From Fluviicola sp. (lineage in GTDB: Bacteria; Bacteroidota; Bacteroidia; Flavobacteriales_D; Crocinitomicaceae): DNA of 64,000 bases. The stretch covers positions 965,315 to 1,029,314 of the forward strand of contig NZ_JBCNJT010000001.1 of assembly GCF_039596395.1 (NCBI RefSeq), given 5' to 3'. The notes under the pieces were generated by a model. The model was not told where the DNA came from. It worked only from the letters and a program-made list of their open reading frames with translations, and did not search any database. The first letter of the stretch is position 1, and each line of letters opens with the position of its first letter. Both the position numbers and the translations under genes were made by a program. Shown one piece after another: positions 24,222 through 42,906 of this stretch.

Positions 24222-25646
24222 ATGGAACAAATTAGTGTTTTTGATATTTTCAAGATCGGTGTAGGCCCTTCGAGCTCTCATACAATGGGACCCTGGAGAG
24301 CAGCACAGCAATTCATCAATTTATATAAGACCAATCCGGGAATCAGCGAAATCAAACGAATTCATGTGGATTTGTACGGATCCCTGGCTAAAACAGGTAA
24401 AGGACACGGAACGGATATCGCTGTTCTGTTGGGATTAATGGGGGAAGATCCCGTTACCATTGCTGTAAATACCATCGATCCGAAATTTGAACGGATCCAT
24501 CTGACAAAAACACTGGAAATTTGCGGGGAGCACGTCATTACTTTTGACCCCGAAACAGACCTGATCTTTCATTTTGATAAATCATTACCCGGTCATCCGA
24601 ACGCGCTGACATTAACCGTTTTTATGATGGACGGTTCGCAGGAATCGCACACGTATTACTCCGTTGGTGGCGGATTCGTGGTAAAAGAAGGCGAGGAAGA
24701 AACCCAATCGGCAGATGCCGTGCAATTACCTTTCCCGATTGAAACGGCTGCAGACCTGAAAAGGTATTGCGACGAGCAGGGAGTAAGTATTTCTGAAATC
24801 GTTTTGCGCAATGAATTGACCTGGAGATCCCAGGAAGAAACTTTTGCCGGGTGCCTGGAAATATGGAATGTGATGCGTGAATGTGTTTACAGAGGAGTAA
24901 ACACGCAGGGAACACTTCCTGGAGGGTTGAATGTGAAAAGACGCGCTTATGAAATGAGCCGGCGCTTATTGAACGGAATTGCCTGTAAAGATTCAAAGGA
25001 TTTCATCAAACAAATTCAGTCGACCAGTAATATTTTCCAAAATACCCTGAACTGGGTAAGCTGTTTTGCCCTTTCGGTAAACGAGGAAAACGCAGCATTC
25101 GGAAGAGTGGTAACAGCGCCTACAAATGGAGCTTCGGGCGTTATTCCAGCCGTATTGATGTATTACGTTTGTTTCGCAGGCGGAACAGAAGATAAAGATA
25201 TTATCCGTTTCATGACAGTTGCTGCCGAGATCGGAAGTATTTTCAAAAAACGCTCCACCATATCCGCTGCAATGGGCGGTTGCCAGGCAGAGATCGGTGT
25301 TTCTTCCGCAATGGCTGCTGCAGCTTTGACAGAATGTTTGGGCGGTGATCCGGATCAGGCCATGATGGCTGCGGAAATCGCGATGGAACATCATTTGGGC
25401 TTGACTTGTGATCCTATCGGAGGATTGGTGCAGATTCCATGCATCGAACGGAATACGATGGGAGCAATCAAAGCAATTACGGCTTGCCAGTTGGCTTTAC
25501 AGGGAAATCCGGATACAGCAAAAGTTTCGTTGGATGGGGTCATCAAAACCATGTGGGAAACCGCTTTGGATATGAATGAGAAATACAAGGAAACATCCGA
25601 CGGCGGATTGGCGACGAACATCCCGGTGAATATTTCGGAGTGCTAA
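24222..25646 (+). CDS. sdaA: L-serine ammonia-lyase, iron-sulfur dependent, single chain
   Basis: 474 residues. It deaminates L-serine to pyruvate and ammonia using a [4Fe-4S] cluster. The N-terminal domain has [23 protein letters not shown], the SSSHT hallmark. The catalytic domain carries [18 protein letters not shown] and the cluster cysteines in [27 protein letters not shown]. It is the one-chain type, as in E. coli SdaA, rather than the split alpha/beta form. Serine is also the precursor of cysteine, which links it loosely to the sulfur operon downstream, but that operon has its own promoter and riboswitch. Confidence 0.95.
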
Positions 25647-25761: not shown

Positions 25762-25793
25762 TTGCTTTTATCAATTTCTTTTAAGAATCTTTG
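25762..25793 (+). promoter_or_regulatory. Promoter of the SAM-riboswitch leader
   Basis: TTG at 25762-25764 and AATCTTTG at 25786-25793, with a 21-base spacer. The -7 box deviates in its first base (A for T). It would start the transcript near 25800, about 30 bases ahead of the riboswitch core. Confidence 0.5.
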
Positions 25794-25823
25794 TGCCGTA
25801 ATTCTAAGCGAGAATACAAGTAG

Positions 25824-25946
25824 TTTATACAGAAGAGGCGAGAGACGGACTTTTTGACCCTCTGGCAACCAACTTTAAGTCACGACACTAACAGTCGGGA
25901 TTGGAAAACCGGTGCCAACTTCCGAGTTTGATACAAAGTGTATCCG
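25824..25946 (+). promoter_or_regulatory. SAM-I (S-box) riboswitch upstream of metX
   Basis: The segment carries the S-box core: AGAGGCGAGAGACGGAC, a short loop, then CCCTCTGGCAACC, a variable stem, and CCGGTGCCAACTTCC. AGAGG pairs with CCTCT, and GGCAACC/GGTGCCAA are the strongly conserved SAM-I junction words. The position just ahead of a homoserine acetyltransferase operon is a standard one for SAM-I in Bacteroidota. It should reduce expression when S-adenosylmethionine is abundant. The closing P1 helix is less certain (ATAC near 25826 with GTAT near 25940), and I do not see a classic terminator immediately after it, so control may be at translation or through the leader peptide that follows. 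Confidence 0.85.
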
Positions 25947-25966
25947 ACGAATATAAATAGTGTGTT

Positions 25967-26068
25967 ATGAAAAGAGCAAAAATTTACAAGCCTTATTTTC
26001 ATCTGCCGCGGCAGATAACTTCTTTCAATTTTATTTCCGGTCAAATGTGTTGTTGTTGCTGTTGTTAA
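25967..26068 (+). CDS. Leader peptide ending in six cysteines, upstream of metX
   Basis: 33 codons from ATG 25967 to TAA 26066-26068. The product begins MKRAKIYKPYFHLPRQ, continues ITSFNFISGQ and ends M-C-C-C-C-C-C. The six Cys codons (TGT x5 and TGC) are the last sense codons. An ATG at 26045 gives a minimal MCCCCCC. It sits between the SAM riboswitch and metX, whose ATG is 42 bases past the stop. The UGUUGU run is complementary to ACAACA at 26096-26101, nine bases before the metX start. A 16-base palindrome (ATCTGCCG/CGGCAGAT, 26001-26016) lies within the frame. I infer ribosome-mediated sensing of Cys-tRNA. Polycysteine leader peptides are known in actinobacteria; I know of no described Bacteroidota example. 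Confidence 0.75.
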   Translation: MKRAKIYKPYFHLPRQITSFNFISGQMCCCCCC

Positions 26069-26110
26069 TTCTTCGGTCAACTTTATTTTTCATTTACAAC
26101 ATATTTTATC

Positions 26111-27166
26111 ATGTCAACAACGTATTTAGTTCGTGAAAGCGAACAGGCTTTGCAGCCAATCCAGCATATCTATTCTTCAAACGCCGCATTCTTTTTGGAA
26201 TCCGGAAAGAAATTATCGAACCTTTCGCTGGCTTACCAAACCTGGGGAACACTGAATGAAGACCGTTCGAATGTGGTTTGGGTGTGTCATGCACTCACGG
26301 GGAATCACCGGGTACAGGAATGGTGGGGCGATTTATTCGGAACGGGAAAATGTTTTGATCCGGAAGACTATTTCATTGTAGCCGTAAATGTTCCCGGAAG
26401 TGCTTATGGTTCTACCGGGCCTTTGAGCGAAGAGCTTCCCGAAGAGGAAAAATTCGATGCATTTCCCGTACTGACTATCCGTGATATGGCAGCAGCATTG
26501 GAATTGGTTCGCAAAGAATTAACGATCGAACGGATCCATGTGTTGATCGGGGCATCTTTAGGCGGACAGCAACTATTGGAATGGTCATTAATCATCCCGG
26601 ATAAAATAGAGCACATTATTCCCATTGCAACCAACCTGAAACATTCACCCTTTGGAATTGCTTTCAACGAAGCACAGCGCATGGCAATCCAGGCCGATCA
26701 GACATTTTATTCGAAAAAACACGATGGAGGAGAGGAAGGCCTGAAAGCTGCGCGCGCAATCGGGATGTTGAGTTACCGCACTTACGAAGGTTACCGGATT
26801 ACTCAAAGCGAAGAAGACCATTCCGGGTTTGACGGTTTCAAAGCAAGTTCCTACCAGCAATACCAGGGAGAAAAGCTGGCAAAACGCTTCAATGCATTCA
26901 GTTACTGGTATTTATCCAAAGCAATGGATTCACACAATGTGTTCCGGAACCGGGATGAAAACGTGTTGGAACGATGTCGCATGCCTGCTTTGGTGATCGG
27001 TATTGATTCGGATCTTTTATTCCCGGTCGCAGAGCAGGAAGAACTCGCAAATCAGTTACAAAATGCCAGGCTGGTCCGCTTACAATCAGACTTTGGCCAC
27101 GACGGATTTCTGGTAGAAACGGAAACCTTAACGAACCACATTAAACAATTTTTAAAGATTAACTAA
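26111..27166 (+). CDS. metX: Homoserine O-acetyltransferase
   Basis: 351 residues, alpha/beta-hydrolase fold. It acetylates L-homoserine with acetyl-CoA, the first committed step to methionine. The oxyanion region reads VWVCHALTGNHR, the substrate loop VNVPGSAYGSTGP, the nucleophile Ser is in LIGASLGGQQLLEW near residue 148, the acid Asp in IGIDSDLLFP near 300, and the His in FGHDGFLVE near 333. That is the complete triad. First gene of a four-gene operon; hom follows after one base. Its leader contains the SAM riboswitch and the polycysteine frame. MetX and serine acetyltransferase share the fold, but the acceptor motif and the neighbours fix the assignment. Confidence 0.95.
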   Translation: MSTTYLVRESEQALQPIQHIYSSNAAFFLESGKKLSNLSLAYQTWGTLNEDRSNVVWVCHALTGNHRVQEWWGDLFGTGKCFDPEDYFIVAVNVPGSAYGSTGPLSEELPEEEKFDAFPVLTIRDMAAALELVRKELTIERIHVLIGASLGGQQLLEWSLIIPDKIEHIIPIATNLKHSPFGIAFNEAQRMAIQADQTFYSKKHDGGEEGLKAARAIGMLSYRTYEGYRITQSEEDHSGFDGFKASSYQQYQGEKLAKRFNAFSYWYLSKAMDSHNVFRNRDENVLERCRMPALVIGIDSDLLFPVAEQEELANQLQNARLVRLQSDFGHDGFLVETETLTNHIKQFLKIN

Positions 27167-27167
27167 G

Positions 27168-28415
27168 ATGAAAAAACAACTCACAATAGGATTATTCGGT
27201 TTCGGATGTGTAGGAACCGGATTATACGAAGTATTGAACAAAACCACTCTTTTACAGGCTTCGATCAAACACATCGTAATTAAGGATTTAAGCAAGAAAC
27301 GCATCATTGATCCGGGTTATTTCAGTACGGATGCAGACCGCATTCTGAACGACGAAGAAATCAATGTAGTGGTGGAATTGATCAACGATTACGAAGCCGC
27401 ATACGAGATCGTGACGCGTGCATTGAAATCCGGGAAACACGTGGTTTCAGCGAATAAAAAACTGATCGCTTATTACCTGGACGAATTGGTTTCACTGGCG
27501 AAAGAGAACAACGTTTCCTTCCTGTATGAAGCATCTGTAGGCGGTTCCATTCCGATTATCCGTAACCTGGAGGAATATTACAACAACGATTCACTTTCCA
27601 ATATCAACGGAATTGTAAATGGGACCACGAATTATATTCTCACGAAAACAAGCGAAGGAGAATCTTTTGATGGAGCGCTTAAAAATGCACAGGACCTGGG
27701 CTTTGCCGAATTGGATCCGACTTCGGATGTGGATGGATTCGATGCCAAATACAAATTAGTGTTACTGTTGAAACATGCCTTCGGATTTACTGCGAAACAG
27801 GAGGCCGTTTGGAATTATGGAATCCGTCACCTGAAAGATTGGGATGCGACTTATGCCCGTGAAAAAGGATTGAAAATCAAGTTGCTGGCGTTCGGAACGC
27901 GAATCAATAACCAGGTAATCGGTTTTGTGGCTCCGCACCTGATTCCGAACAATCATTTTGCATTCAATGTAGAAAATGAGTTCAATGCGGTAGTAGTGGA
28001 AGCGTTATTTTCCGATAAACAGTTATTCCTTGGAAAAGGTGCGGGAAGCCACCCGACAGCGAGTGCGGTACTTTCGGATATTTCCGCATTGCAGTTTGAT
28101 TATGCCTACGAGTACAAAAAATCCAAAACGGAAGAAATCCTGCATTTCGAGCACGATTTTTCCCTGAAAGTCTATTTGAGTGCTACAACCCAGGAAAAAC
28201 TGGACCAAGTGGAGTTTGTTGAGACACTGGAAACCTATTCAGGACAATCTCACAGTTACAAGATCGGAAGAGTGACGTACGAAGAATTACAAAAACAAAA
28301 CTGGAACGATGCTTCCGATTATTTCCTGGCGGTCATTCCAGATAGTGTTGAGTTGAACAATGGAGCCATACTTTCCGCATCGGAATCCACCCGATTAATC
28401 GAAGAATTGTCATGA
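27168..28415 (+). CDS. hom: Homoserine dehydrogenase
   Basis: 415 residues. It reduces aspartate semialdehyde to homoserine with NAD(P)H. The Rossmann motif GLFGFGCVGTGLYEVL is at the N-terminus. VVSANKKLIA, LYEASVGGSIPIIRNL and GIVNGTTNYILT are the family signatures, with the catalytic Lys/Asp region in AELDPTSDVDGFDAKYKLVLL. The C-terminal about 90 residues may be a degenerate ACT-like domain. It is not fused to aspartokinase. One base separates it from metX, and its stop overlaps the OsmC-family start by 4 bases, so translation is coupled. It supplies the MetX substrate within the same SAM-regulated unit. Confidence 0.95.
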   Translation: MKKQLTIGLFGFGCVGTGLYEVLNKTTLLQASIKHIVIKDLSKKRIIDPGYFSTDADRILNDEEINVVVELINDYEAAYEIVTRALKSGKHVVSANKKLIAYYLDELVSLAKENNVSFLYEASVGGSIPIIRNLEEYYNNDSLSNINGIVNGTTNYILTKTSEGESFDGALKNAQDLGFAELDPTSDVDGFDAKYKLVLLLKHAFGFTAKQEAVWNYGIRHLKDWDATYAREKGLKIKLLAFGTRINNQVIGFVAPHLIPNNHFAFNVENEFNAVVVEALFSDKQLFLGKGAGSHPTASAVLSDISALQFDYAYEYKKSKTEEILHFEHDFSLKVYLSATTQEKLDQVEFVETLETYSGQSHSYKIGRVTYEELQKQNWNDASDYFLAVIPDSVELNNGAILSASESTRLIEELS

Positions 28416-28825
28416 AATTAGCATTGAAACTGGTAGAAGCTCCTTTCGTTTTGGAAGCGAGCAATGAATCGGGAGCTTCCCTGAAAATGGATGCAACGGA
28501 GAAAATCGGAGGACAAAACAAGGGAATGCGACCGATGGAAGTACTTGCAAGTTCGCTGGCAGGTTGCATGTCGATAGATGTGTTGCTGATTCTTCAAAAA
28601 CAGCGTCAGGAAGTTTCTTTTTACGAAGTGAACATTGATGCTAACCGTAAAGATGCTGTTCCGGCGGCATTTGAGACCATTCACCTGGTATTTGCATTCA
28701 ACAAGGAAGTAGATCTTGAAAAAGCGGCAGCCGCAGTAAAACTAAGCCATGAAAAATATTGCTCGGTTTCTGCATCCCTGCGCCCGGAAATAAGTATTCA
28801 AACAGAAGTCAGACATCAATCATGA
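28412..28825 (+). CDS. OsmC-family peroxiredoxin-like protein
   Basis: 137 residues, OsmC/Ohr fold. The two reactive cysteines of the family are present, in SSLAGCMSIDVLLIL and EKYCSVSASL. Such proteins reduce organic hydroperoxides in the cytosol. It is embedded in the methionine operon, overlapping hom by 4 bases and the trans-sulfuration gene by 4 bases. That tight placement suggests a role connected to thiol or sulfide chemistry rather than osmotic stress; this is inference. OsmC proteins are commonly located in sulfur operons of Bacteroidota in my experience. Confidence 0.9.
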   Translation: MKLALKLVEAPFVLEASNESGASLKMDATEKIGGQNKGMRPMEVLASSLAGCMSIDVLLILQKQRQEVSFYEVNIDANRKDAVPAAFETIHLVFAFNKEVDLEKAAAAVKLSHEKYCSVSASLRPEISIQTEVRHQS

Positions 28826-29991
28826 ATCATTACAGAAACGAAACTTTAGCGATCCGCATTCAGAATGAGCGTTCGCAGGAAGCAGAACACAGTGTTCCTT
28901 TATACCTCACATCCAGTTATGTGTTTGACGATGCGGAGCAGATGCGTGCAGCCTTTTCCGATGAAATCGAAGCCAATATTTATTCCCGGTATTCCAATCC
29001 GAATGTGGATGAATTACTGGAAAAAGTAGCGCGTTTGGAAGCCGGAGAAGCAGCCTGGGCAACAGCTACGGGAATGGCAGCAGTGTTTACCACTTTTGCG
29101 GCTTTGCTTCAGAGTGGCGATCACATTGTTTCTTCCAAGTCGGTTTTCGGGTCTACGCACCAGTTATTCGTGAATATTCTTCCGAAATGGGGAATTACAA
29201 CCACTTATGTCGATGCAATCGATTACGAGGGCTACGAAAAAGCCATTCAGCCGGAAACGAAAATCGTTTACATTGAAACACCTTCCAATCCGGGTTTGGA
29301 CATTATTGACATCCAAAAACTGGCAGCAATCTGCAAAGCGAAAAAGGTATTGCTGGTGGTCGACAATTGTTTCGCTACGCCGGTTTTACAGCAACCGTTA
29401 AAGCTCGGCGCGGATATTGTCATTCATTCCGCAACGAAATACATGGACGGGCAAGGCCGTGTGCTGGGAGGACTGATCGTTTCGACCAAAGAAATCATAA
29501 CCCAAATTCAGGGATTTGCGCGTCACAGTGGGCCGGCATTATCACCGTTCAATGCGTGGGTGCTTTCCAAATCACTGGAAACCCTGCATCTGAGAATGGA
29601 AAAACATTGTGCTCAGGCTTATGAAATTGCGAAGCGCCTGGAATCAAACAAGCAGGTTGCGTGGGTGAAATATCCGTTCCTGGATTCGCATCCGCAGCGT
29701 GATACCGCAAAAAGCCAGATGCAATATGGTGGTGGAATTGTCACTTTCCAGGTCAAAGGAGGATTGGAAGCCGGAAGAAAATTCCTGGACCGCCTGAATT
29801 TGTTCTCGCTGACTCCAAACCTGGGCGACAGCCGAAGTATTGCCACACATCCGGCATCGACCACCCACAGCAAGTTGAAACCGGAAGAACGCGAAGCAGT
29901 GGGCATTTCCGACGGATTGGTGCGCTTGAGCATCGGTTTGGAACACCTGGAGGATATTTGGGAAGATATTGAACAGGCGTTGAATAATTGA
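28822..29991 (+). CDS. metZ: O-succinyl/acetylhomoserine sulfhydrylase (PLP, Cys/Met metabolism family)
   Basis: 389 residues from ATG 28822, which overlaps the OsmC stop (ATGA). The PLP Cys/Met family motifs are SRYSNPNVDELLEKVARLE, ATGMAAVFTTFAALLQSGD and the PLP lysine in HSATKYMDGQGRVLGG near residue 206. The GQGR after the lysine is typical of MetZ-type sulfhydrylases that use sulfide directly to make homocysteine, rather than cystathionine gamma-synthase. With MetX in the operon the likely substrate is O-acetylhomoserine. The longer frame to 28759 would overlap OsmC deeply and is rejected. The gene ends 2 bases before a terminator palindrome. Confidence 0.9.
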   Translation: MNHYRNETLAIRIQNERSQEAEHSVPLYLTSSYVFDDAEQMRAAFSDEIEANIYSRYSNPNVDELLEKVARLEAGEAAWATATGMAAVFTTFAALLQSGDHIVSSKSVFGSTHQLFVNILPKWGITTTYVDAIDYEGYEKAIQPETKIVYIETPSNPGLDIIDIQKLAAICKAKKVLLVVDNCFATPVLQQPLKLGADIVIHSATKYMDGQGRVLGGLIVSTKEIITQIQGFARHSGPALSPFNAWVLSKSLETLHLRMEKHCAQAYEIAKRLESNKQVAWVKYPFLDSHPQRDTAKSQMQYGGGIVTFQVKGGLEAGRKFLDRLNLFSLTPNLGDSRSIATHPASTTHSKLKPEEREAVGISDGLVRLSIGLEHLEDIWEDIEQALNN

Positions 29992-41544: not shown

Positions 41545-42906
41545 ATGAAAGTTTATAACAACATATTGGAAACCATCGGGAATACGCCTTTGGTGAGATT
41601 GAACAAGCTGACCAAAAACTGTAAAGCAACCGTTTTAGCGAAAGTTGAAACAACCAACCCTGGCAACTCCGTGAAAGACCGCATGGCGGTAAAAATGATC
41701 GAGGACGCCGAGAAAAACGGATTGTTGAAACCGGGAGGAACCATCATCGAAGGAACTTCCGGGAATACAGGAATGGGACTGGCCCTGGCTGCTATCGTAA
41801 AAGGTTATAAGCTGATTTGTGTATTGAATGACAAACAGTCCAAAGAGAAAATGGATATTTTGCGTGCTGTTGGAGCTGAAGTAGTGGTTTGTCCTACTGC
41901 TGTTGAGCCTTCAGACCCGCGTTCCTATTATTCCGTTTCCAAAAGACTGGCAAAAGAAATCCCGAATTCCTGGTACGTAAACCAATACGATAACTTATCG
42001 AACCGTGTGGCTCATTACGAGCAAACAGGTCCTGAGATCTGGGAACAGACCGATGGAAAAGTAACGCACTTCATCGTTGGAGTAGGAACAGGAGGAACGA
42101 TTTCCGGAGTTGGAAAATATCTGAAAGAGAAAAACCCGAACATCAAGATTTGGGGAATTGATACGTACGGTTCTGTTTTCAAGAAATACAAGGAAACAGG
42201 GATTTTTGACGAAAACGAGATCTATCCGTATATCACCGAAGGAATCGGGGAGGACATTCTTCCGGCAAACGTGGATTTCGATGTGATCGATTTATTCGAA
42301 AAAGTAACCGATAAAGATGCAGCAATTTATACGCGCCGCCTGGCTCGTGAGGAAGGAATTTTCGTTGGAAACTCGGCAGGAGCAGCTATCGGTGGATTGT
42401 TGCAGTTGCAAGACCAGCTAACGGAAGATGATGTGGTAGTAGTTTTATTCCACGACCACGGAAGCCGTTATGTAGGTAAAATCTTCAACGACGACTGGAT
42501 GCGTGAACGTGGATTCCTGGAAGAAGAATTCAAAACGGCAGAAGATGTGATCGCGCGCCACGCGGATTTACCGTTGGTAACACTGTATTCGGAAGAATTG
42601 GTTTCACATGCGATCATGAAAATGCGTAAGTACAACATTTCTCAGATTCCTGTATTGAGAGACGGGGAATTAGTAGGTTCATTGAACGATTCCCAGGTTT
42701 ACCAGTTGCTGGTTGATAATCCGGCGTTGAGAGACACACCGATTTCGAAGATCATGCAGAAGCCTTTCCCGGTTGTTGCAGGGACAGCTAAACTGGAAGA
42801 TGTGGCGAAACTGATCAATGAGCAGACGCCTGCTGTGATTGTTGAGCGTGCAAACGGAGATAAGAAAATTCTTACTCGTCAGGACGTGATTGCTTCTCTT
42901 GCTTAA
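41545..42906 (+). CDS. cbs: Cystathionine beta-synthase with CBS domains
   Basis: 453 residues. The PLP domain has ILETIGNTPLVRLNKL, NPGNSVKDRMAVKMI (PLP lysine), EGTSGNTGMGLALAA and GVGTGGTISGVGKYLKE. A serine/homocysteine-type active site is seen in SAGAAIGG. The last about 120 residues form a pair of CBS motifs (SHAIMKMRKYNISQIPVLRDGELVGSL; DTPISKIMQKPFPVVA). This combination is cystathionine beta-synthase rather than cysteine synthase, although bacterial enzymes of this type can also make cysteine. It condenses serine and homocysteine, so it is the reverse-transsulfuration step to cysteine and complements the metX-metZ operon at 26-30 kb. Confidence 0.9.
   Translation: MKVYNNILETIGNTPLVRLNKLTKNCKATVLAKVETTNPGNSVKDRMAVKMIEDAEKNGLLKPGGTIIEGTSGNTGMGLALAAIVKGYKLICVLNDKQSKEKMDILRAVGAEVVVCPTAVEPSDPRSYYSVSKRLAKEIPNSWYVNQYDNLSNRVAHYEQTGPEIWEQTDGKVTHFIVGVGTGGTISGVGKYLKEKNPNIKIWGIDTYGSVFKKYKETGIFDENEIYPYITEGIGEDILPANVDFDVIDLFEKVTDKDAAIYTRRLAREEGIFVGNSAGAAIGGLLQLQDQLTEDDVVVVLFHDHGSRYVGKIFNDDWMRERGFLEEEFKTAEDVIARHADLPLVTLYSEELVSHAIMKMRKYNISQIPVLRDGELVGSLNDSQVYQLLVDNPALRDTPISKIMQKPFPVVAGTAKLEDVAKLINEQTPAVIVERANGDKKILTRQDVIASLA

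Follow-up and report, generated by a model that had tools for sequence, protein, structure and literature searches.

Polycysteine leader peptides of Actinobacteria were reportedly the subject of work by Canestrari et al. in 2020. Leaders of this type are known in that phylum (PMC1262725) and, as far as the accessible text of the source goes, they resemble the frame described here in being short ORFs with a Cys run near the stop codon, located before cysteine or sulfur genes, and in lacking, in the mycobacterial cases, a conserved terminator hairpin. They differ in the phylum and in the genes concerned (the cys operon and cbs), and the available text mentions no riboswitch. A second related case is uORFC-8-2, a leader with two Cys codons that precedes cysS in Rhodobacterales (PMC8632094). 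Going by the portion of that report at hand, it is similar in having tandem Cys codons within a stem before a cysteine gene, but the codons are two, a U-run terminator is present, no riboswitch is mentioned and the hosts are Alphaproteobacteria.

The present locus also departs from SAM-I (S-box) leaders, since here the start codon found behind the P1 helix belongs to the leader peptide and not to the gene. Leaders with two inputs have been found elsewhere, as in mgtA, whose leader responds to Mg2+ and to proline. The tandem attenuators of Salmonella mgtCBR form a two-input leader with a codon-sensing ORF (PMC3641672); in the accessible part of that description, one leader receives two inputs, one of them through a codon-rich ORF that reads charged tRNA, as we propose below, but the signals are ATP or Mg2+ and proline, the phylum is a different one and a SAM aptamer is absent. 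In Bacillus clausii, metE is preceded by SAM-I and AdoCbl riboswitches in tandem (PMC2258182). This leader is alike in that it controls a methionine gene by two inputs with the use of SAM-I, and unlike in that, according to the text available, the second input is another riboswitch and the terminators are independent.

As for species closer to the one studied here, 'strong clues' that leader peptides attenuate a number of operons for amino acids, unnamed in the accessible text, are noted in Flavobacterium psychrophilum (PMC9723704), and a map of B. thetaiotaomicron mentions, in the part available, sORFs resembling attenuating leader peptides (PMC7366714). In the openly accessible papers searched, we found neither a combination of SAM-I with a cysteine leader nor, for Bacteroidota, any description of a polycysteine leader. 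A comparative survey of attenuation by Lopatovskaya, Seliverstov and Lyubetsky is said to exist and could hold an earlier mention.

A riboswitch and a polycysteine frame upstream of metX

The window, that is, the whole stretch of 64,000 nucleotides of Fluviicola sp. that was analysed, carries the features collected in table 1. An earlier note made on the letters of this DNA had placed a SAM-I core at 25824-25946, and we recovered it as a match to RF00162 above the gathering threshold. No other Rfam family reached its gathering threshold in the whole window, and the covariance-model score puts the aptamer within the family by a margin of 1.2 bits only. The same note had described a frame of 33 codons ending in Met, six Cys and TAA, with the metX ATG 42 nt beyond the stop, as well as an ACAACA motif at 26096-26101, all of which were found in place. 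The frame translates as MKRAKIYKPYFHLPRQITSFNFISGQMCCCCCC followed by the stop, with a Met-Cys6-TAA tail, and begins after a gap of 7 nt from the last base of the riboswitch. Directly upstream of the leader lies a gene for L-serine ammonia-lyase (window 24222-25646); cystathionine beta-synthase uses serine as its co-substrate.

Table 1. Features of the leader, its operon and a related gene in the window (window coordinates)
Feature	Position	Strand	Evidence or remark
SAM-I riboswitch aptamer	25822..25959	+	RF00162, 45.6 bits vs gathering 44.4, E 3.3e-07
P1 3' strand GAATATAAATA, directly upstream of leader ATG	25949..25959	+	Rfam alignment
Polycysteine leader peptide ORF, 33 sense codons, stop TAA	25967..26068	+	
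Hairpin ATCTGCCGCGGCAGAT within leader ORF, starting 34 nt past the leader's first base	26001..26016	+	
Six Cys codons TGT TGT TGT TGC TGT TGT	26048..26065	+	ATG 26045-26047 before, TAA after
CGGTCAAC, possible anti-Cys strand just past the stop, pairs with Cys codons	26074..26081	+	
ACAACATAT, second possible partner of Met-Cys codons, before metX start	26096..26104	+	0 covariation
metX, homoserine O-acetyltransferase-like	26111..27166	+	TIGR01392 328.7 bits, below cut-off 500; NF001209 304 vs 331
Homoserine dehydrogenase	27168..28415	+	NF004976 342.5 bits, cut-off 205
OsmC-like protein	28412..28825	+	PF02566 66.3 bits
metZ-type O-succinyl/O-acetylhomoserine sulfhydrylase	28822..29991	+	NF006003 532.4 bits, cut-off 522
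Cystathionine beta-synthase, outside the leader operon	41545..42906	+	TIGR01137 489.6 bits, just under cut-off 510.25; PALP + CBS domain

For comparison, 316 SAM-I leaders of Bacteroidota were tabulated, 295 of them distinct once identical ones had been removed. This sample is not random, being made up of the 80 loci nearest in metX, relatives and hand-picked SAM-I places, part of which came from the best matches listed, where low-scoring SAM-I leaders are under-represented. The nearest named metX relatives of the window are Fluviicola and Flavobacteriales MAGs. Outside the 316 rows stand 28 of the 80 named metX loci and five fetched SAM-I loci (L022, L139, L224, L250 and L303), at which no aptamer core was found by pattern. 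A leader was counted as carrying a Cys run when, in a frame between aptamer and gene, three or more of the last 15 codons were Cys codons; the 72 Cys leaders so defined include a few weak ones (e.g., L279, L373 and L402) that are expected from chance. Genes beyond the reference set, which includes the metY of L041, were labelled by short motifs.

The position of the leader start with respect to the riboswitch is regular. The leader ATG lies 39-53 nt past the aptamer core in 57 of the 72 Cys leaders, and in 44 of the 72 an ATAAA-type motif of the P1 3' strand is found 9-12 nt before it. A TATAAA-type motif is carried by 128 of the 295 leaders (including 11 of the 79 MetH/E/F ones), and among these 128 an ATG stands 6-14 nt behind the motif in 56/62 Cys leaders and 28/42 others of the metX/metY class, versus 1/11 MetH/E/F leaders and 4/13 remaining ones. 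One locus (L123, genome G014) has no leader ORF and, in the position where it would begin, a metX ATG in frame with the gene, which amounts to a natural deletion. According to the accessible text of PMC2258182, there are SAM-I riboswitches in which the 3' side of P1 contains the ribosome binding site. With its ATG so close behind P1, translation of the leader peptide is probably gated by SAM through the SAM-I riboswitch. In two metH leaders (L018 and L021), strong hairpins are followed by a tail rich in U (5 and 9 of 10 nt); such hairpins and the rarity of the P1-ATG layout in metH leaders suggest that two SAM-I platforms coexist in one genome.

Chance, gene specificity and distribution of the cysteine frame

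Among 164 SAM-I leaders of 30-400 nt before MetX, MetY or homoserine dehydrogenase genes, 56 have an upstream ORF with a Cys run by this definition, versus 39 of 3280 dinucleotide shuffles (20 per leader), and at least five Cys occur in 42/164 leaders versus 1/3280 shuffles. In the first 227 leaders, which are those covered by the frame and shift tests, every one of the 48 distinct runs of at least three TGY codons is in frame with an ATG behind the riboswitch. When the last run of 49 leaders (duplicates included) was moved by 1 or 2 nt, the frame was open in 11 of 98 cases. Interruptions of the runs consist of whole codons only, as in CCCMCCCMC (L039) and CICICCPCCC (L041), and the Cys codons are mixed (267 TGT and 146 TGC). 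Between families, the N-terminal parts of the leaders differ, and the number and spacing of Cys vary. The variable N-termini, the whole-codon breaks and the TGT/TGC mixture are what one would expect if Cys codons close to the stop are under selection.

A Cys run is by its nature a short repeat, and it might have arisen by chance or as a TGT simple repeat devoid of coding role, but the shuffles, the frame test, the gene specificity described below and the TGT/TGC mixture contradict such an origin. We rejected it on the basis of the shuffles and frame tests, and its probability is negligible. The sequence hallmarks of a polycysteine attenuator, namely a Cys run by the stop, a conserved frame and cysteine-linked genes, are found here, and the sequence evidence makes it very likely that the frame encodes a real cysteine leader peptide.

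The frame is far from evenly distributed among genes. Within the 295 distinct leaders it precedes metX in 26 of 49 cases, metY in 37 of 139, homoserine dehydrogenase in 1 of 3, cysH in 3 of 4 and osmC in the single case, and it was not found before metH (0/75), metE (0/2) or metF (0/2). Taken together, 68 of 196 MetX/MetY/HSD/CysH/OsmC leaders have a Cys frame versus none of 79 MetH/MetE/MetF leaders (Fisher 2e-12), a comparison in which the metH leaders, being shorter (median 103 vs about 220 nt), offer less room for such a frame. The divide runs between sulfur-bringing genes and methyl-moving genes. Both states are present in the window genome, where the metX leader (L002) has the run and the SAM-I leader of metH (L001) does not. 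The remaining genes gave 5 Cys frames in 20 leaders, three before TonB-receptor-type genes and two before a 332-aa protein; among the same 20, a receptor-like leader (L240), four peroxiredoxin leaders and three NifS-like leaders are without a Cys frame.

Some of these cases deserve separate mention. In other Bacteroidota, leaders of cysH (PAPS reductase) combine SAM-I with a Cys-rich frame (L352, L388 and, as a weak case with a frame of only 8 codons, L365), and three of the four cysH genes were checked as PF01507. Cys frames at this gene extend the two-input scheme to sulfate reduction. Possible Cys-containing frames lie behind SAM-I before the TonB-receptor-type genes of L336, L393 and L373 (the gene was checked at L336), which perhaps serve the uptake of sulfur compounds. 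The uncharacterised 332-aa protein is preceded by SAM-I and a Cys-rich frame in two genomes of one genus (L368 and L376), and the gene at L376 has no Pfam match.

The survey of Bacteroidota SAM-I leaders supports a two-input leader made of SAM-I and a polycysteine frame in several families of the phylum, mainly before genes of sulfur assimilation and homocysteine synthesis. The run is absent, on the other hand, in 102 of 139 metY and 23 of 49 metX SAM-I leaders, so the pairing of SAM-I with Cys codons is lineage-specific. Only one or two Cys are left in most Larkinella loci, and the run was lost in one Fluviicola MAG (L059). The case named in the earlier note as speaking against its reading, a leader without the run but with the riboswitch, does occur, at L059, L123, L125 and L127, the last three in genomes that have CysK.

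Genome-wide scans for TGY runs before stop codons (115/296 genomes and 129/395 genomes) gave tallies that are not evidence by themselves, since the background is high; among the loci read, we used only those in which a small ORF precedes a gene that is of sulfur type or was met repeatedly. Two frames, the first with seven and the second with four Cys codons at its end, were seen 60-65 nt before cysS-type genes (L189, whose gene is PF01406, and L159, whose gene was assigned by its N-terminus only). Five further frames end in six to nine Cys codons; one precedes a tetrapyrrole methylase gene (L207) and the others (L198, L200, L203 and L205) precede genes with one shared N-terminus, the gene at L198 being PF05721, PhyH. 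No aptamer core was found by pattern at any of these seven loci.

Predicted pairing of the cysteine codons and the hairpin inside the frame

Ribosome-dependent attenuation at the Cys codons is likely. The number and spacing of Cys are free, which fits codon sensing rather than a folded site. This bears on another explanation, by which the peptide, being rich in Cys, would work in trans or bind a metal or a thiol-reactive signal (oxidation, zinc) instead of gauging Cys-tRNA. Four or more adjacent Cys could indeed bind metal, and an OsmC gene is part of the operon, but N-termini unconserved between families, together with the free Cys number and spacing, make such a role very improbable. A sensing of Cys-tRNA would imply that cysteine shortage raises expression of the operon, which we regard as quite likely.

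The stall may act on transcription or on translation of metX, and this may differ between lineages; on the exact switching step our confidence is evenly balanced. The Cys codons pair with the sequence past the stop at p<0.05 in 11 of 44 leaders (combined 3e-6) and, in a narrower Cys-codon pairing test, in 12 of 72 (combined 1.3e-6), with no significance in the other 33/44 and 60/72; as the relatives are not independent, these combined p-values, like all others given here, overstate. The pairing is clear in some relatives (L041, L050 and L403). In the window, the pairing of CGGTCAAC with the Cys codons is not significant (p 0.113), and it is stronger in some relatives outside the genus.

The earlier note had proposed that the UGUUGU run pairs with ACAACA and hides the metX start, which a ribosome stalled on the Cys codons would free. 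The helix itself is predicted. It appears as an RNAalifold consensus helix in nine relatives, each of its 6 pairs being kept in 8 or 9 of the 9, and the minimum free energy fold of the window contains a 9-bp helix, AUGUGUUGU with ACAACAUAU, longer than the 6 bp first noticed. When the Cys codons are blocked, moreover, the gene start is predicted to be more open, the value rising in the window from 0.43 to 0.75 and the mean of 19 short-spacer leaders from 0.47 to 0.60. Against its acting as a switch stand a consensus energy of -1.64 kcal/mol with 0 covarying pairs, such that the covarying helix between Cys codons and gene start typical of a translational attenuator was not found in these relatives, and a window fold no better than that of shuffled sequences (z -0.48, 49 of 200 shuffles at least as good). 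In 48 long-spacer leaders no opening of the gene start is predicted upon blocking; moreover, the predicted openness is 0.60 whether the ribosome is placed at the stop or at the Cys codons. Translational attenuation through Cys codons and ACAACA(UAU) is therefore, in our judgement, rather unlikely.

A pattern scan revealed no canonical intrinsic terminator behind the window leader. The two hits of that scan were discarded, one being located upstream of the riboswitch and the other corresponding to the hairpin of the leader ORF. RNAalifold, applied to several groups of relatives, returned helices in some close groups and no common fold among the groups listed.

It might also be supposed that the leader ORF has no part in sensing cysteine and serves just to increase or time the translation of metX, by reinitiation or standby. 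Leader genes have been proposed to raise downstream translation by reinitiation (PMC4833913), but in the accessible text of that study the peak distance for Bacteroidetes is 11-14 bp, whereas the stop codon lies mostly 30-140 nt before the gene in our leaders. Such a role would also leave unexplained the Cys codons themselves, their absence before metH and the association with CysK presented below, and we consider it as improbable as the metal-binding peptide.

The leader frame contains a second structural element, absent from the earlier note. A hairpin mostly begins 31-43 nt past the first base of the leader, with a sequence that differs among lineages. Of the 72 Cys leaders, 59 were taken into the hairpin test, in which 26 gave p<0.05 and 15 gave no hairpin; the combined value of 1.6e-13 is optimistic because the position window was picked after the pattern had been seen. 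The first 24 nt of the leader have less structure than shuffled sequences. In eight Fluviicola relatives, 76.8% of the hairpin cells pair, the covariation score is 0.602 versus 0.229 in shuffles, and 12 cells are changed on both sides versus 5.0, with none of 500 shuffles reaching either value. Five of the seven hairpin pairs are changed on both sides, a figure matched by 112 of the 500 shuffles. Sliding the arms drops pairing to 18-46%, and RNAalifold gives the same helix unprompted, 4 of its 5 pairs having kept double changes.

The distance of the hairpin tracks the start codon and not the Cys run, and places it just outside an initiating ribosome. Such a location leads us to propose a pause of RNA polymerase. 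In the trp leader, a paused RNA polymerase waits for the first ribosome, and by analogy the hairpin probably works as a pause or coupling hairpin. A hairpin at a similar place is also found in some metX/metY leaders that have no run, and so it may belong to a module formed by riboswitch and leader start.

Cysteine supply and the two proposed inputs

Cysteine as a second input had been explained in the earlier note by competition between homocysteine synthesis and cysteine synthesis. We replace this explanation, since cystathionine beta-synthase is present and no CysK-type protein was found, which makes it more likely that cysteine is produced from homocysteine. The window genome has two PALP-family matches, that is, the cystathionine beta-synthase and a D-cysteine-desulfhydrase-like protein, and the search for CysK in this genome returned none, the sole TIGR01136 match being the cystathionine beta-synthase. 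For a second enzyme of Cys/Met metabolism, encoded elsewhere (L409), cystathionine gamma-synthase is the single model passed of those shown, and we assume that it performs the cystathionine lyase step. With this gene content, homocysteine probably feeds both SAM and cysteine, which would probably be the two end products of the metX operon.

The presence of CysK was compared with that of the run, a protein over the TIGR01136 cut-off being called CysK and the tallies being made by hand. CysK is present in 2 of 21 genomes with the run versus 3 of 3 without it in the family of the window genome (Fisher 0.0049; two of the 21 are 83-84% complete), and in 9 of 36 versus 28 of 43 in a wider sample (6e-4), both values being too optimistic since the genomes are related. 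Counting G129 (L279, three scattered Cys) among the genomes with the run changes the latter figures to 9/37 versus 28/42. The tally covers 80 of 89 intended genomes, from which G292 was then taken out because only its metH leader (L303) was read, and the run-less state of a genome refers to the SAM-I leaders read, some such genomes having further SAM-I matches. Nine exception genomes of the wider sample have CysK and run together. In a family here called f1, 12 of the 15 genomes searched, some of them incomplete, gave no metX match (G006, G010, G019, G025-G031, G033 and G034), which suggests methionine auxotrophy or another route.

Putting these elements together, bound SAM would close P1 and thereby cover the initiation region of the leader, as the position of the ATG suggests. 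When SAM is low, the leader would be translated, and the hairpin ~34 nt past the ATG probably holds RNA polymerase for the first ribosome. As in classical attenuation, a ribosome with enough Cys-tRNA would reach the stop and the operon would stay attenuated, and shortage of Cys-tRNA would cause a stall that keeps the Cys codons from downstream pairing, allowing metX to be expressed. The operon would be fully on only when SAM and cysteine are both short, because homocysteine probably feeds SAM and, via cystathionine, cysteine. When SAM is plentiful, homocysteine would also return from SAH, so that an override of the cysteine input by SAM may be tolerable.

We therefore favor, as the likely function of the locus on sequence grounds, a two-input leader that would control homocysteine synthesis by its two end products. 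There is a slightly better than even chance that the scheme applies across several Bacteroidota families, in which SAM-I, instead of acting on the gene directly, would switch on translation of a cysteine-counting leader and form an RNA AND-gate (low SAM and low Cys-tRNA) for homocysteine synthesis and for sulfate reduction (cysH), the cysteine half being lost where a separate cysteine synthase exists and the gene start then being able to move behind the riboswitch. If true, the locus would represent a naturally occurring RNA controller that responds to two metabolites, its leader peptide being gated by a riboswitch, and a single leader would read both end products of one branch point. The rule that we offer is that the cysteine input would occur where homocysteine is the source of cysteine and would be lost with CysK. 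The finding also marks small ORFs in a phylum in which attenuation seems little studied.
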